A DNA stretch of 64,000 bases from Thioalkalivibrio sulfidiphilus. Lineage in GTDB: Bacteria > Pseudomonadota > Gammaproteobacteria > Ectothiorhodospirales > Ectothiorhodospiraceae. The notes beneath the pieces are model-generated. The model was not told the origin of the DNA. It saw only the letters and a program-made list of their open reading frames with translations, and made no database searches. A program made the translations under genes and the position numbers. The stretch is taken from NCBI RefSeq assembly GCF_000377945.1, contig NZ_KB898923.1, positions 1-64,000 of the forward strand, in the 5' to 3' direction. Below are positions 3,201-55,139 of this stretch, one piece after another; within the stretch, counting starts at the first letter, position 1; each line of letters begins with the position of its first letter.

Positions 3201-3303
3201 TAATGCTCGGGCGGTGTCGGGCGACCGCCAGCCGCCAATCGGACACCCATTCACACCCATTCCGGGGTAAAGCAGCCCGCGATGCGGGGCATCGCGCCTT
3301 CTA

Positions 3304-5065: not shown

Positions 5066-5164
5066 GGTTAGGGACACCCATAAACCGGGATGGGCGGTGA
5101 TGTTGGACATCCACAACCCAGCCCGGTTAGGCAGGCAGCGTAGATCATGGATGTCCTAAACCGT
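5066..5164 (+). repeat. GGGACACCCAT element, copy 1 (left flank of defence operon)
   Basis: About 99 bases. It begins GGGACACCCATAA, has an internal TTGGACATCC, and ends ATGGATGTCCTAAACCGT. The ends form imperfect inverted repeats (GGGACACCCAT against ATGGATGTCC). It is about 90% identical to the copies at 16747 and 20099 and in the same orientation. It resembles REP/BIME elements mobilised by RAYT enzymes, though no RAYT gene is in the window. Confidence 0.8.
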
Positions 5165-5262
5165 ATCCTCACTTGGGGTACTCTGGCGACGCCCTGTCGG
5201 GTTTGGTGGCTACTCCAATCAATGCTTGGATGGTTGCGCCGAGCATTCGGAACTCCGGGTGG

Positions 5263-16746: not shown

Positions 16747-16903
16747 GTAGTTTGGGACACCCATAACCCAGGATGGGCGGTGGTTTTGGACATCTACAAC
16801 CCGGCCAGGTTAGGCAGGTAGCGTAGATCATGGATGTCCCAAACCGTCCCCAGATTATGGATGTCCCAAACCGTCCGTCCCAAACCGTCCGCCAAACCGT
16901 CCG
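16747..16903 (+). repeat. GGGACACCCAT element, copy 2, with CCAAACCGTCC tail array
   Basis: A 103-base copy (16747-16849) starts GTAGTTTGGGACACCCATAA and ends ATGGATGTCCCAAACCGTCC. A partial second end (ATGGATGTCCCAAACCGTCC) and further CCAAACCGTCC words run to 16903. The terminal inverted repeat is TTTGGGACACCCAT against ATGGATGTCCCAAA with one mismatch. A GTAG head is typical of RAYT-linked REP sequences. The array ends exactly where the hsdR remnant begins. Confidence 0.82.
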
Positions 16904-20098: not shown

Positions 20099-20201
20099 GT
20101 AGTTTGGGACACCCATAACTCGGGATGGGCGGTGGTTTTGGACATCTATAACCCGGCCAGGTTAGGCAGGTAGCGTAGATCATGGATGTCCCAAACCGTC
20201 C
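20099..20201 (+). repeat. GGGACACCCAT element, copy 3
   Basis: 103 bases, from GTAGTTTGGGACACCCATAA to ATGGATGTCCCAAACCGTCC. It differs from copy 2 at about four positions and has the same orientation. With copy 2 it brackets the hsdR-remnant/YgjP/HNH cassette. Confidence 0.85.
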
Positions 20202-20298
20202 TTTGGCCTCATGGCTGGTCAAAGCGAATTGCTCAGACGTTCCTTAGTGCGTAGATCTGGGTGTCGCTGGACACCCAGCGTGCGCCCGATCGCTGTCC

Positions 20299-21463: not shown

Positions 21464-21476
21464 TCACGACTGACCG

Positions 21477-21604
21477 CAGATCCGCATTGGAACACCCATA
21501 GTCTGGTATTGTGGGTGTCCCAAACCGCTGTCTCGCACAGCAGATCCGCATTGGAACACCCATAGTCTGGTATTGTGGGTGTCCCAAACCGCTGTCTCGC
21601 ACAG
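21477..21604. repeat. perfect 64-bp tandem duplication
   Basis: Two identical 64-base units (21477-21540 and 21541-21604). Each has the palindrome GGAACACCCATA...GTGGGTGTCCCAAACCG, a shorter relative of the GGGACACCCAT element. It marks the breakpoint of the prophage remnant. Confidence 0.9.
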
Positions 21605-21680
21605 CCGAAGGCTGCCCGCAGGGCGGCGCACAGGATGTGCGCCGTGAACCCACCCCGGAAACCCTTGAGGAGGCCGTGAC

Positions 21681-33741: not shown

Positions 33742-35247
33742 ATGTCCGCCACCGAAAGCTTCAGCCTCCACAACCTGCACCGCCACGGCGATCTCATCAT
33801 GGTCGCCGTGTGCTGGTTCCTGCTGGCACTCGCCCTGGCCCTGGCCGGATGGCACAGCACCTGGACCGCGGCCCTGGTCATCGGACTGCCCGCCGCCCTG
33901 GTGCCCACCGCCCTGCTGTGGCTGACCCCGGGCAGCCTGCTCAACCGCCTGGTCAACGCCACGGCGCTGATGGTGTTCTCGGCGCTGATCATTCACCAGA
34001 GCCGGGGCATGATCGAGATGCACTTCGCCATCTTCGTGCTACTGGCCTTCCTGCTCTACTACCGTGACTGGCTGCCCCTGGTGACCGCGGCGGCGGTGAT
34101 CGCCGTGCACCACCTGGCCTTCAACTGGATGCAGGAGGCAAACCTGGGCGTGTACATATTCGAATGGCGCACCGGCCTGGACATCGTGTTCATCCACGCA
34201 GGATTCGTGGTGTTCGAGACCGCCCTGCTGGTGTACATGGCGGTGCTGCTCAGACGCGAGGCGGTGCAGTCGGAGGAACTGCACCTGATGGGTGGACACA
34301 TGCGTGTGGATAACGGCATGGTCGACCTGACCTTCCGCAACCCGGCGGCACGCAGTCCGCTGGCCCGTGGGCTGAACGACTACGTGGCGGCCCTGCACGA
34401 CGCCATCCGCCTGACCCGCTCCAGCAGCCACGAACTTTCCGAGACCGCCCAGGGCCTGGCCCAGGCGGCGGAGCGCACGGACCGGGCCGCCCGGGACCAG
34501 CAGGCCGAGACCCAGCAGATCGCCTCGGCCGTCACCGAGATGGAGGCCAGCGCACGGGAAGTGGCGCACAACGCCCAGGAGGCCGCCGCCGCCACCCGCG
34601 AGGCGGACACGCAGGCCCGCTCAGGCCGCGAGGAGATCGAGCGCACCGTGGCGGTGATCAACGAACTGGCGCGCCAGGTGGAGACCTCGGCCCGGGTGAT
34701 CGACCAACTGGAACAGCAGAGCGACAAGGTGGGCGGCGTGCTGGAGGTGATCCAGTCCATCGCCGAGCAGACCAACCTGCTGGCGCTGAACGCCGCCATC
34801 GAGGCCGCGCGCGCCGGTGAACAGGGCCGGGGTTTCGCAGTGGTGGCCGACGAGGTGCGCACCCTGGCCTCGCGCACCCAGGATTCCACGCAGGAGATCC
34901 GCGCCATCATAGAGCAGCTCCAGGGTGGCGCACAGCAGGCCGCCCAGACCAGTCGGCAGGCCCGCGACCAGGCGGAACAGGGGGTCACGCGCATCGGTCA
35001 GGCGGGTCAGGCCCTGCGCGCCATCGCCGACGCCATCGGCCACATCAACGACATGAACATGCAGATCGCCAGCGCCGCCCAGCAGCAGACCCGGGTCACC
35101 GAGGCGATCGCCGAGAACGTCAATCAGGTGAGCGAGGCCTCTCTGAGCGCCGCGAACCAGGCCGCCGAGAGCCGTCGCGCCGTGGAACTCCTGCTGGGCC
35201 TGAGCCGGGAACTGGAAAAACGCATGGGGCAGTTCAAGACTGAGTAA
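33742..35247 (+). CDS. methyl-accepting chemotaxis protein with multi-helix membrane domain
   Basis: 501 residues behind GGAGAGACCC. The first ~180 residues hold about six membrane helices ([37 protein letters not shown] and others) with no large periplasmic sensor and no clear HAMP. The cytoplasmic signalling domain has the hairpin tip [20 protein letters not shown] and [10 protein letters not shown]. It should signal to CheA/CheW on a membrane or intracellular cue. Its stop codon merges into the following repeat. No che genes are nearby. Confidence 0.92.
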
Positions 35248-35325
35248 TTCAAAATTCAAGATTCAAAATTCAAAGGAGATTCGCGTCCAGGTTCCCTTTG
35301 AATTTTGAATCTTGAATTTTGAATC
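35246..35325. repeat. AATTCAAAATTCAAGATTC palindrome
   Basis: Left arm AATTCAAAATTCAAGATTC and on to AAAATTCAAAGG; right arm CCTTTGAATTTTGAATC and on to TTGAATTTTGAATC. The same element recurs at 52218-52294. It lies between the convergent chemoreceptor and cbpA genes. Confidence 0.85.
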
Positions 35326-51305: not shown

Positions 51306-52283
51306 GTGACAGACCCCGACCGCGCCAGCCCCCTGTGGCTGGTGGACTCCAGCATCTACGTGTTCCGCGCCTGGTTCACCCTGCCCGAGGCCATCACCGA
51401 CCGTGAGGGCCACCCGGCCAATGCGGTGACCGGTTTCGGCGAGTTCCTGGTGCGCCTGCTCACCCGGGCCGCGCCGGCGCCGGTGGTGTTCGCCTTCGAC
51501 GAAAGCCTCGGCCAGTCCTACCGTCACGAGATCTACCCCGAATACAAGGCCAACCGCCCGCCGGCCCCGGAATCCCTCAAGCGCCAGTTCCGCCAGTGCC
51601 GCGCCCTGGTCACTGCCCTGGGCTTTCCCGCCTTCTCCAGCCCCCGCTACGAGGCCGACGACATCATCGGCACCCTGACCGCCCGTCAGCAGGCCGCGGG
51701 CGGCAGCGTGCACCTGATCACCGCCGACAAGGACCTGACCCAGCTGGTGGGCCCCGGCGACCTGTGGTGGGAATTCCAGCAGGACCGGCGCCTGGACGCC
51801 CGGGGCGTGGAGAAGAAGCTGGGCGTGCGCCCGGAGCAGGTGGCCGATCAGCTGGCCCTGGCCGGCGACAAGGTGGACAACATCCCCGGCGTGCCCGGCA
51901 TCGGCATGGCCACCGCCGCGCGCATCCTGCGCCGGTTCGGCGACCTGGACACGCTGTTTGCCGATACCGATGCAGTGGCGAAACTGCACATCCGCGGCGC
52001 CAGGCGCCTGGCGGACCTGATCGCCGAACACGAGCACAGCGTGCGCCTCTCGCGCCGGCTCACCGGCATCCACTGCGACATCGAAGACCTGCCGCAAGAC
52101 CTGGACCTCACCCCCGCCGCCCCGGACCGCGCGGCCCTGACCGCGCTCCTGGATCAGCTCGGCATCGACGGCCCGCGCCGGGTACGTTGGGAAGCGCTGA
52201 TCGACCGGCTGGAAGACAATTCAAGATTCAAAATTCAAAATTCAAAGAAACACGACTCCACCCCTTTGAATTTTGAATCTTGA
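51306..52283 (+). CDS. 5'-3' exonuclease (FEN/ExoIX-like)
   Basis: 325 residues from GTG 51306. LVDSSIYVFRAWFTLPEAIT, FAFDESLGQSYRHEIYPEYK, YEADDIIGTLT, LITADKDLTQLV and the HhH GDKVDNIPGVPGIG match the stand-alone homologues of the Pol I 5' nuclease domain. It should process flaps and primer ends. The last ~18 residues (FKIQNSKKHDSTPLNFES) and the stop codon are encoded by the AATTCAAAATTC repeat, so the native tail was lost. Confidence 0.9.
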   Translation: MTDPDRASPLWLVDSSIYVFRAWFTLPEAITDREGHPANAVTGFGEFLVRLLTRAAPAPVVFAFDESLGQSYRHEIYPEYKANRPPAPESLKRQFRQCRALVTALGFPAFSSPRYEADDIIGTLTARQQAAGGSVHLITADKDLTQLVGPGDLWWEFQQDRRLDARGVEKKLGVRPEQVADQLALAGDKVDNIPGVPGIGMATAARILRRFGDLDTLFADTDAVAKLHIRGARRLADLIAEHEHSVRLSRRLTGIHCDIEDLPQDLDLTPAAPDRAALTALLDQLGIDGPRRVRWEALIDRLEDNSRFKIQNSKKHDSTPLNFES

Positions 52284-52294
52284 ATTTTGAATCC
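52218..52294. repeat. AATTCAAAATTC palindrome, second copy
   Basis: AATTCAAGATTCAAAATTC on the left, then TTTGAATTTTGAATCTTGAA and TTTTGAATCC on the right. It matches 35246-35325. It lies across the end of the exonuclease gene and reaches to two bases before the cobW start codon at 52296. Confidence 0.88.
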
Positions 52295-52295
52295 A

Positions 52296-53363
52296 ATGCC
52301 CATCCCCACCCACCTGATCACCGGCTTCCTCGGCGTAGGCAAGACCACCGCCATCCGCCATCTGCTGGCCCATCGTCCAGCGGGCGAACGCTGGGCGGTG
52401 CTGGTCAACGAGTTCGGCCAGGTGGGGGTGGACGAACAACTGATGGAAGGCGAGGACGTGGCCATCCGCCAGGTGCCGGGCGGGTGTCTCTGCTGCGTCA
52501 GCAGCCAGGCCTTCACCGTGGGGCTCAACCGGCTCATCCGGGAGGAGCGCCCCGCGCGCATCCTCATCGAACCCACCGGCCTGGGCCACCCGGCCCGGGT
52601 GATCGAGACCCTCACTGGTGAGTTCTACCGGCAGGTGCTTGATCTGCGCGCCGTGATCACCCTCATCGACGCACGCCATCTGGCCTCACCCCGGCACCGG
52701 ACGCACCCCACCTGGCAGGACCAGATCGCGCTCGCCGACGTGCTGGTGGCCAACAAGGCCGATCTGTACAGCGATGCGGAGCGGGAGGCCTTCCTGGACT
52801 TCGCCCGGAGGCTGGACCCGCCCAAGTCCCGCACCGCCCTGGTCAGCCAGGGTGCCCTGGACCCCGCCTGGCTGGACCTGCCAGCCCATCCAAAGCGATC
52901 CGTTGAGGACACCCATGATCCACTTGGGGACACCCATCATCCTGGGCACGATGATCTACTTGGGGACACCCATCATCCTGAGTACGCGCATGGTGATCTA
53001 CTTGGGGACACCCATCATCCTGAGTACGCGCATGGGGACAGCCATGATTCACCTGCGGGCACGCGGTCCGACTGGTTCCTGGCGACCCAGCACGGCGACG
53101 GCTACCACGGCATCAGCTGGCTGCTCGGCCCCGCCGTTCGGCTGGCGCACGAAGGCCTGATCGAGCTGCTGCACGGGGGTGCATGGGACCGGACCAAGGG
53201 CGTGCTGCACACCGACCGGGGCTGGTTCACCCTCAACCGGGTCTCCGGCGAGGGCACCCTTGAACCCCGCACACCGGGGCAGGAGACCCGCCTGGAGATC
53301 ATTCATCACGCGCCATTGGATGCCGGACGGCTCGATGCCAGGCTGCGTTCCCTGCGGCTCTGA
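52296..53363 (+). CDS. cobW: CobW/COG0523 GTPase (metal chaperone) with His/Asp repeat linker
   Basis: 355 residues from ATG 52296. Walker A GFLGVGKTT, the metal-binding GGCLCC (CxCC) near 62-67, NKAD for guanine specificity, and a C-terminal CobW_C domain. The linker at residues 204-251 consists of repeats of GDTHHPEYAHGDLL-like units with about 11 His and as many Asp, and its DNA is a tandem array of GGGGACACCCAT words. COG0523 proteins deliver zinc or cobalt, often under Zur control. The neighbours (Zur-like box and zevAB-like genes) favour zinc. Confidence 0.92.
   Translation: MPIPTHLITGFLGVGKTTAIRHLLAHRPAGERWAVLVNEFGQVGVDEQLMEGEDVAIRQVPGGCLCCVSSQAFTVGLNRLIREERPARILIEPTGLGHPARVIETLTGEFYRQVLDLRAVITLIDARHLASPRHRTHPTWQDQIALADVLVANKADLYSDAEREAFLDFARRLDPPKSRTALVSQGALDPAWLDLPAHPKRSVEDTHDPLGDTHHPGHDDLLGDTHHPEYAHGDLLGDTHHPEYAHGDSHDSPAGTRSDWFLATQHGDGYHGISWLLGPAVRLAHEGLIELLHGGAWDRTKGVLHTDRGWFTLNRVSGEGTLEPRTPGQETRLEIIHHAPLDAGRLDARLRSLRL
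52905..53045. repeat. in-frame GGACACCCAT array inside cobW
   Basis: GGACACCCAT starts at 52907, 52928, 52964 and 53006, and GGACAGCCAT at 53036. The spacings 21, 36, 42 and 30 are all multiples of three. One 42-bp unit is exactly duplicated (52952-53035). The word is the end sequence of the dispersed element at 5066, 16747 and 20099. Confidence 0.88.
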
Positions 53364-53457: not shown

Positions 53458-54129
53458 ATGCAGCCATTCGCCCTACAGCCCCTGCGCCGCCTGCTCACTG
53501 GCCTCGTCCTGTTCCTGGCGGTTCTGCTGAGTGCCCAGGCCCACGCCCACCCCCACGCCTGGATCGACCTGCGGGTGGCGGTGGTGTTCGACGAGGCGGG
53601 GCGCATTACCGCCCTGCGCCAGGTCTGGCGCATCGATCCCTTCTACAGCCTGGTGCTGCTGGAAGAGATGGCCACCGATGCCCGGGGCAACACACCGGAG
53701 GAAAAGCTCGCGGACATCGGCAACCGCATGATCGAGAACCTCGCCCCCTACCACTATTTCACCGAGGTGAGCCACGGCGGGCAGCGCATGCAGGGCTTCA
53801 GCGTCCGGGATCATGGCCTGGTCAATGCCGCCGGTCGCCTGGAACTGGGCTTTACCCTGGTGTTGCCGGCACCAGTGAACCCTGAGACCGCGCCGCTCAC
53901 CTACGCCGTGTTCGATCCCAGCTACTACATCGAGATCCTCCACGACCCGGACGCGACCGTGGCCCTGGAGGGCGCCTCGGAACGCTGCGGCCTGCAGATC
54001 CGCCAGCCCCGGCCCGATCCCGTGATCGTCGCCCGGGCCGCCGCCCTGGACGCCAACCAGACCGGCGACCCGGACCTGGGCCGCCACTTCACCGAACACG
54101 GGGAGGTGCGATGCGACCCGGCACCCTGA
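53458..54129 (+). CDS. DUF1007 periplasmic zinc-uptake protein (ZevA-like)
   Basis: 223 residues from ATG 53458. A signal peptide (LTGLVLFLAVLLSAQAHA) is followed by HPHAWIDLRVAVVFDEAGRI, the DUF1007 start. The rest is beta-rich with YHYFTEVSHGG and DPSYYIEILHDPDA. In Haemophilus the DUF1007 protein ZevA works with the RcnA-like ZevB in zinc acquisition; the same gene order is seen here. It overlaps the downstream gene by 19 bases. Confidence 0.85.
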   Translation: MQPFALQPLRRLLTGLVLFLAVLLSAQAHAHPHAWIDLRVAVVFDEAGRITALRQVWRIDPFYSLVLLEEMATDARGNTPEEKLADIGNRMIENLAPYHYFTEVSHGGQRMQGFSVRDHGLVNAAGRLELGFTLVLPAPVNPETAPLTYAVFDPSYYIEILHDPDATVALEGASERCGLQIRQPRPDPVIVARAAALDANQTGDPDLGRHFTEHGEVRCDPAP

Positions 54130-55139
54130 TCCCGGCCGTGCTGATCGCACTGCTGCTGTGGGCCCCGCTGCTCGGGGCCTCACCCCTGTCCGGCGGCAGT
54201 TCAGCGCCCCATGCCACGGCCAGCGAACCGGAAGCCCTGAACGCCTGGGAGCGGGCCACCCTGTGGGTGCTCAACACCCAGCGGGACCTGCACCGGCAGC
54301 TGGCCCGGGGCATGGAGCGCATCCAGAACGCCCCCACCGCCGCCAATACCTTCGCCCTGGTGCTGGTGGGCTTCCTGTACGGCATCTTCCACGCCGCCGG
54401 GCCCGGCCACGGCAAGGCGGTGATCACCACCTACCTGCTCACCCATCGCCAGCACATGACCCGCGGCCTGGTGCTCTCCTGGGCCTCGTCCCTGCTGCAG
54501 GGACTGACCGCCATCGCCCTGGTGGTGGGCGTGGTGGTGATCGCAGAGCGCCTGACCCGGGATGCCCTCGGACAGGTGAGGACGCTTGAGATGATCAGCT
54601 TCGCCCTGGTGGCTGCGGTGGGTGCCTGGCTGGTGTTTCGCGCCCTGCGCGGCCTGTGGCGCCTGCGCCCGGTGGCGCAGCATGCACATGATCATGATCA
54701 CGCGCACGGACACGACCATCATCACGATCATGAACACGGCTGCGGCTGCGGCCACGCCCACCACGTCACCCCCGAACAGGCGGCCCGCAGCGACAGCCTG
54801 GGTGCCATGATCGGCACCGTGGTGGCCGTGGGCATCCGCCCCTGTACCGGCGCGATCCTGGTGCTGGCCGTGGCCAACGTGCTGGGCCTGTGGCTGGCGG
54901 GCATCGCCGCCGTGCTGGCCATGTCCGTGGGCACCGCCATCACCGTGTCGGTGCTGGCGATCCTCGCCGTGCAGGCCCGCCACTGGGCCGGGCGCATCGC
55001 CGGCAACCAGGGCGGCAGCCTGGCCTGGGCCCGGGCCGGCCAGGGGGTGGCGCTGGCCGGCGGGTTGCTGATCTTCGCCTTAGGTCTAAGCCTGCTGGGC
55101 GCCGGCCTCGACGCCCCCGCCCACCCGCTGGGGCTGTGA
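54111..55139 (+). CDS. NicO/RcnA-like membrane transporter (ZevB-like)
   Basis: 342 residues. Six or more membrane helices with the family motifs FLYGIFHAAGPGHGKAVITT and GIRPCTGAILVLAVANVLGL. A cytosolic or periplasmic loop (~185-220) is very rich in His (HDHDHAHGHDHHHDHEHG, then CGCGHAHH). With the ZevA-like partner and the Zur-like box it most likely moves zinc; nickel or cobalt export cannot be excluded from sequence alone. Confidence 0.87.
   Translation: MRPGTLIPAVLIALLLWAPLLGASPLSGGSSAPHATASEPEALNAWERATLWVLNTQRDLHRQLARGMERIQNAPTAANTFALVLVGFLYGIFHAAGPGHGKAVITTYLLTHRQHMTRGLVLSWASSLLQGLTAIALVVGVVVIAERLTRDALGQVRTLEMISFALVAAVGAWLVFRALRGLWRLRPVAQHAHDHDHAHGHDHHHDHEHGCGCGHAHHVTPEQAARSDSLGAMIGTVVAVGIRPCTGAILVLAVANVLGLWLAGIAAVLAMSVGTAITVSVLAILAVQARHWAGRIAGNQGGSLAWARAGQGVALAGGLLIFALGLSLLGAGLDAPAHPLGL

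Follow-up and report, generated by a model that had tools for sequence, protein, structure and literature searches.

The locus analyzed here raises the question of how a CobW-like GTPase came to carry a His/Asp-rich linker written in the same DNA as a repeat that lies between genes. The window is a stretch of 64,000 nucleotides, part of contig C3 of the genome assembly G000. The original prediction held that the end word of a dispersed, non-coding element in this window had been turned into coding sequence, and the gene, the repeat outside it and the genomes of relatives each provide part of the answer.

The CobW-like gene and its linker

The host is a COG0523/CobW-like P-loop GTPase gene of 355 aa (52296..53363, + strand). 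Its product scores 160.6 bits against PF02492 in a profile search (cut-off 20.7), and both the Walker A sequence GFLGVGKT and the metal motif GCLCC (GCxCC) are present in the translation, which places it in the COG0523/CobW family; it misses the equivalog cut-off of TIGR02475, CobW sensu stricto (102.2 vs 332.1 bits). Downstream are a DUF1007 family gene (53458..54129, +; PF06226, 203.1 bits) and a NicO family (nickel/cobalt transporter-like) gene with a His-rich loop of its own (54111..55139, +; PF03824, 132.5 bits), and the order cobW-DUF1007-NicO, read by eye, is the same in two related genomes (G002 and G004). On the upstream side, inverted heptamers AATTCAA / TTTGAAT at 52218-52293 encode the last ~20 residues of a 5'-3' exonuclease gene and are possibly another repeat read as protein; a similar pair occurs at 35246-35325.

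The linker itself (52896..53060, +) spans 55 aa with 11 His and 13 Asp+Glu, and its position between the GTPase and C-terminal domains was established from relatives. A search of solved structures returned a good match for the GTPase domain only (YjiA, residues 2-163). The AlphaFold2 model, built from three sequences, is poor (mean pLDDT 46.5), with hardly any secondary structure and the lowest confidence in residues 195-259; the poor modelling of these residues would be weakly suggestive of a linker.

Four exact copies of GGACACCCAT start at 52907, 52928, 52964 and 53006, and a fifth word at 53036, GGACAGCCAT, differs by one mismatch. Thus the five in-frame end words originally counted do share one frame, but only four of them are exact. 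Start-to-start distances of 21, 36, 42 and 30 bp are all multiples of three, as had been stated, and the residues encoded (EDTHD, LGDTHHP three times, GDSHD) bear out the predicted GDTHH-like units. The three central words sit in longer units: unit 2, CACTTGGGGACACCCATCATCC (52921..52942, +), matches the array consensus of the sister genome, CACTTTGGGACACCCATCATCC, at 21/22 bases, and unit 3, TACTTGGGGACACCCATCATCC (52957..52978, +), matches the array consensus of its own genome equally well; unit 4 is again TACTTGGGGACACCCATCATCC (52999..53020, +). Word 1 (52907..52916, +) is an exact GGACACCCAT within degenerate flanks, GTTGAGGACACCCATGATCC, and both it and word 5 (53036..53045, +) could be native coding sequence. 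The 42-bp unit TGATCTACTTGGGG...CGCATGG (52952..52993, +) is followed by a second, exact copy (52994..53035, +), the tandem duplication that the original prediction had described, and Tandem Repeats Finder reports a period of 42 with 3.0 copies and 89% matches over 52916-53035. It should be noted that the G000 assembly consists of 69 contigs and that repeat copy numbers may be wrong.

The repeat outside the gene and its transposase

Exact GGACACCCAT occurs eight times in the window, compared to 0.20 expected. The copies at 5072, 16755 and 20107 sit in elements of ~100 bp that end TTTGGGACACCCAT ... ATGGATGTCCCAAAC, the first of these copies being diverged, and the copy at 3241 is isolated. The elements are non-coding and lie on the + strand at 16747..16849, where the word forms one end and ATGGATGTCCCAAAC lies close to the opposite one, at 20099..20201 and, more diverged, at 5070..5165. 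The linker word is therefore the end of a dispersed element, as originally read, with a correction that comes from outside the window: this end word belongs to the neighborhood of a Y1/RAYT-like transposase. As a single strand, the element at 16747..16849 folds better than 192 of 200 shuffles (z -2.06), and three single repeat units show no such advantage over their shuffles (z +1.38, -0.85 and +0.40), which is not the behavior of a REP palindrome. In a check for the GT(A/G)G tag, the word was found to be preceded by GTAG in two window elements, those at 16747 and 20099; at this place most array units show GTAC, CAC or other letters. The window also contains a 64-bp unit in exact tandem duplication with a variant word, GAACACCCAT ... 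GTGGGTGTCCC (21476-21605), and a palindrome-like CTGGGTGTCGCTGGACACCCAG (20257-20278) adjoining a copy of the dispersed element.

Elsewhere in G000, GGACA(C/T)CCAT fills intergenic arrays, with 23 copies on contig C60 and 14 on C65, for which the consensus is TACTTTGGGACACCCATCATCC. Units 3 and 4 of the linker are one base from this consensus and unit 2 is two bases from it, such that the three 22-bp units are identical to the intergenic arrays of their own genome at 20-21/22 bases. None of the three forward frames of the array unit is interrupted by a stop (YFGTPII, TLGHPSS and LWDTHHP), and cobW reads the His-coding one. The TTTGGG of the arrays is replaced by TTGGGG in the full G000 CobW units, which turns LWD into LGD. 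The arrays contain several unit variants and cobW only one, and neither the C60 nor the C65 array has a single fit to GGGGWSAS, hence to GGGGACAC.

Other captured genes were sought through conserved reading frames at the word sites on G000 contigs C14, C22, C24, C29 (twice) and C38; the one match, of 10 bases, was judged to be chance and lies in a C38 gene that we take to be molybdopterin-binding-like. The same inspection of the G004 word sites at 347700-349500 and 814700-816700 and of four array regions revealed no captured gene. In another genome, G021, five GGACACCCAT at 17-bp spacing (locus positions ~991-1068) lie at the edge of a gene fragment, presumably metallo-beta-lactamase-like as named from its translation.

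The C65 array adjoins a FitA-type antitoxin gene, a PIN-domain gene and a 343-aa relative of Y1 (IS200-like) transposases. The antitoxin/PIN pair (locus positions 1672-2489) stands between the array and the transposase, and the longest antitoxin frame starts inside the array. In G004, the orthologous transposase is 98% identical and has arrays in opposite orientation on both sides. The C65 transposase is under both RAYT cut-offs (PF01797, 20.6 vs 23; NF047646, 42.9 vs 80) and is accordingly called RAYT-like, a relative and not a scored RAYT. Relatives of it occur in 36 of 50 genomes and, class-wide at E <= 1e-50, in 36 of 274.

Upstream of these transposases, the core word GACA(C/T)CCA (GGACACCCA-type) is found on the coding strand at 9 of 12 loci and GACACCCA at 10 of 20 (one of them masked). 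Class-wide, GGACA(C/T)CCA lies within 300 bp upstream at 16 of 27 loci, compared to 0.07 expected from shuffles, and the inverted word lies downstream at seven; these 27 loci are the 30 returned minus G000 itself and two examined before. Inverted words flank the transposase on both sides in G001, G002 and G004. The core word is also upstream of the transposase in G001, G002, G009, G013, G021, G025 and G028, genomes in which the cobW linker is without it. Within the 20-locus set, the word was not found upstream in a subgroup of ~48% identity (the loci of G010, G016, G020, G022 and G026). Direct arrays of 6-7 words occur upstream of other transposases of the family in G013 and G002.

At 10 of the 12 loci tried, a TTGA(C/A) box comes 7-8 bases after the word and precedes a -10-like box, a pattern picked post hoc; with this spacing the word may overlap the transposase promoter. 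Consequently, GGACACCCA upstream of many Y1/RAYT-like transposases is a candidate recognition word or operator. The transposase may correspond to TnpA-Y1 subclass 2.3 of PMC6006769, as its length of 343 aa and its host group fit the description there, and the available part of that paper reports that subclasses 2.1 and 2.3 yielded no REP-like sequences. Should the group be subclass 2.3 or 2.1, it is conceivable, though rather unlikely, that GGACACCCA(T/C) would be the word bound or cleaved by a class-wide Y1 group reported as REP-less, maybe also the operator of the transposase itself, and that a G3E GTPase would have domesticated this word here as a peptide repeat that binds metal. For a transposase group this widespread, a candidate recognition word is of interest, as the target of the group is not described in the available part of PMC6006769.

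Origin of the linker DNA

The distribution of the word among genomes places the linker and the arrays together. CobW relatives occur in 51 of 96 genomes; a scan of genome contigs for CobW gave three loci only, none from the species of the window. Among the 30 cobW loci examined (G000 included), GGACA(C/T)CCAT on either strand is present in two, those of G000 and its sister species, G004. With up to two mismatches, the 19-base word is found in three of 96 genomes: G000 (41 sites), G004 (32 sites) and the distant G078 (two weak sites with two mismatches each); reversed-pattern controls gave none in each of the 96. The comparison of relatives' linkers therefore agrees with the original prediction, in that both cobW loci with the word belong to array-bearing genomes and species without the extended repeat are without this DNA in the linker. 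The shorter exact GGACACCCAT exceeds its reversed control in all nine genomes tried, including those without it in cobW. Two genomes of the same genus, G001 and G002, have a shorter His-containing linker (DDHDHGHGASG...) at the same place without the word, and other relatives have linkers of the HDHDH type or with few His, with several Thioalkalivibrio having few or none. As G001 and G002 already have a His-containing linker, the repeat replaced or enlarged an existing one; the claim that the His stretch came from a non-coding repeat holds for the origin of the DNA but not for the creation of the stretch from nothing.

Based on this distribution, the match between linker and arrays and the reading frame, the linker DNA is very probably a captured transposase-associated repeat that was tolerated and then amplified in the cobW-like gene. 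The proposed course would begin with a Y1 transposase family that carries GGACACCCA just upstream of its own gene and with an extended form, TACTTTGGGACACCCATCATCC, that fills intergenic arrays by the transposase and elsewhere in the lineage of sulfur bacteria formed by the window species and its sister species. One unit or a short cluster would then have entered the length-variable, His-containing cobW linker in the frame L-W-D-T-H-H-P, a T-to-G change would have made this L-G-D-T-H-H-P, and tandem duplication in steps of three bases would have enlarged the linker, most of which the repeat now encodes. The insert was most likely tolerated because the linker is a spacer, with a His/Asp content compatible with the loose metal-holding role that has been proposed for COG0523 His stretches. 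Weighing against this course are the scores of the transposase that would move the word, under both family cut-offs, and the degeneracy of the two outer words of the linker.

An alternative is that a native His/Asp-rich linker expanded through slippage and resembles the dispersed word by chance and codon bias. His-rich linkers of the family do differ widely in length, and the last unit, GDSHD, could be native. This reading was set against a codon-level null of 100,000 synonymous recodings of DLLGDTHHPE, using the codon usage of 26 window genes (11,408 codons). The best recodings scored 20/22 (21 cases), and none of the 100,000 reached the observed 21/22; on this basis chance or codon bias was rejected as the source of the linker-array match, and the original reading stands on this point. 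Recodings of the whole linker had four exact words once in 100,000, but the single-unit figure is the fair one because the units of the linker are not independent. The units also use codons rare in the genome (CTA accounts for 1.2% and CTT for 3.4% of Leu codons, and CAT for 23.5% of His codons) and none of the remaining 28 cobW loci contains the word, making slippage a highly improbable origin.

The direction of transfer has to be considered as well, as the two genomes with extended arrays are also the two with the cobW insert. This would be expected if the cobW linker had seeded the intergenic arrays, and it leaves no genome with arrays before the insert, such that the direction rests on the core word. 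The core word accompanies related transposases in genomes where cobW lacks it, and the most likely direction is from the transposase repeat to cobW. All three full CobW units of G000 read TTGGGG, and the C60 and C65 arrays have no GGGGACAC. This is consistent with amplification of a single altered founder and, like the several variants of the arrays against the one of cobW, speaks against seeding by the linker, for which the probability is very small. It could also be proposed that arrays and linker were independent targets of the preferred site of one transposase, neither being copied from the other, as many separate sites with differing flanks contain the word. The identity, however, extends over 20-22 bases, beyond the 9-base core common to the class, and independent targeting is improbable.

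The cobW linker of G004 contains the same units, and a 109-bp tandem duplication inside the array (locus positions 2102-2211) shifts the second half of the gene out of frame: the first frame meets a stop where the second 109-bp copy begins, and the C-terminal domain continues in another frame, while the DUF1007- and NicO-type neighbors are still readable. This cobW would be either a recent pseudogene or a sequence error. Between G000 and G004, dN/dS is 0.22 for the GTPase domain and 0.57 for the C-terminal domain, figures that few changes underlie. The shared history of the two linkers and the frameshift in G004 count among the evidence for the capture. A frameshift within the array points to unstable DNA that is tolerated and not to a prized adaptation, and the captured repeat in cobW is a mutational liability, as illustrated by the 109-bp duplication of the sister genome.

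Metal holding and known systems

According to the available part of PMC2770081, His stretches in COG0523 proteins are thought to hold metal, and the pattern HxHxHxH was present in 365 of 887 surveyed proteins. With x as 0-4 residues, as defined there, HHPEYAHGDSH in the linker has this pattern, and from this motif and the His and acidic content, metal holding by the linker is plausible. It is possible, though we consider it only tentatively, that the GDTHHP units were selected as extra metal sites, an exaptation that would add to the capture origin and not replace it. The 11 His and 13 acidic residues in 55 aa, together with HxHxHxH, would suit such a role, as would the place of cobW beside DUF1007 and NicO genes in an order kept in G002 and G004. 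Use of the His-coding frame out of three open ones could be a sign of selection but has a prior of one in three; similarly, all three full G000 CobW units read LGD and none LWD, but amplification from one founder unit explains this form. The sister gene is frameshifted within the array, and the few or no His in several Thioalkalivibrio cobW linkers indicate that the family can do without a His stretch; both observations speak against a strong selection for the repeat.

The linker shares with the COG0523 His-stretch proteins of PMC2770081 the G3E GTPase, the GCxCC motif and the His-rich stretch itself; an origin of the stretch in a mobile repeat is not mentioned in the available part of that paper. 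Among open-licence papers, no literature linking CobW with repetitive extragenic palindromic sequences was found. Mobile repeats inside genes are known from other systems. The Rickettsia palindromic elements (RPE) are palindromes found in many protein-coding genes. They resemble the present case as mobile repeats inserted in frame in genes and kept, and differ from it in that one gene is involved here and the word is short and mostly non-palindromic. Their presence in protein-coding genes is mentioned in the available part of PMC3733652, which also describes REPs (GTAG/CGTC) inside genes, clustered and in frame and proposed to be tolerated in flexible linkers, as well as REP dimers in a Thioalkalivibrio uvrA gene; in-frame REPs inside transposase genes are described in the accessible text of PMC6006769. 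Like the intragenic REPs of PMC3733652, the CobW units are transposase-associated repeats in a gene, clustered and in frame. They differ from those REPs in that their word is no GTAG palindrome, in that they sit in a metal-chaperone gene, and in that they encode residues similar to the usual His/Asp of the linker.

A further parallel to the repeat type comes from the TIRYT/TIRtron arrangement in the same part of PMC3733652, in which RAYT-like genes are flanked by non-REP inverted repeats, sometimes multiplied into clusters, with the motif GGGGWSAS. Inverted repeats at similar distances are found at some of the loci here, and the three full CobW units fit GGGGWSAS through GGGGACAC. As inverted repeats sharing this motif are published there, the repeat type has in part been described before. 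Conversely, the C60 and C65 arrays do not fit the motif, and the core shared here is GGACACCCA, often in direct arrays. In-frame mobile repeats in genes are thus already known, while a CobW-type protein as the host and the present repeat seem to be new. The locus allows one to follow how selfish non-coding DNA turned into part of a protein: the two sister species have the source arrays and, between them, an intact and a broken copy.
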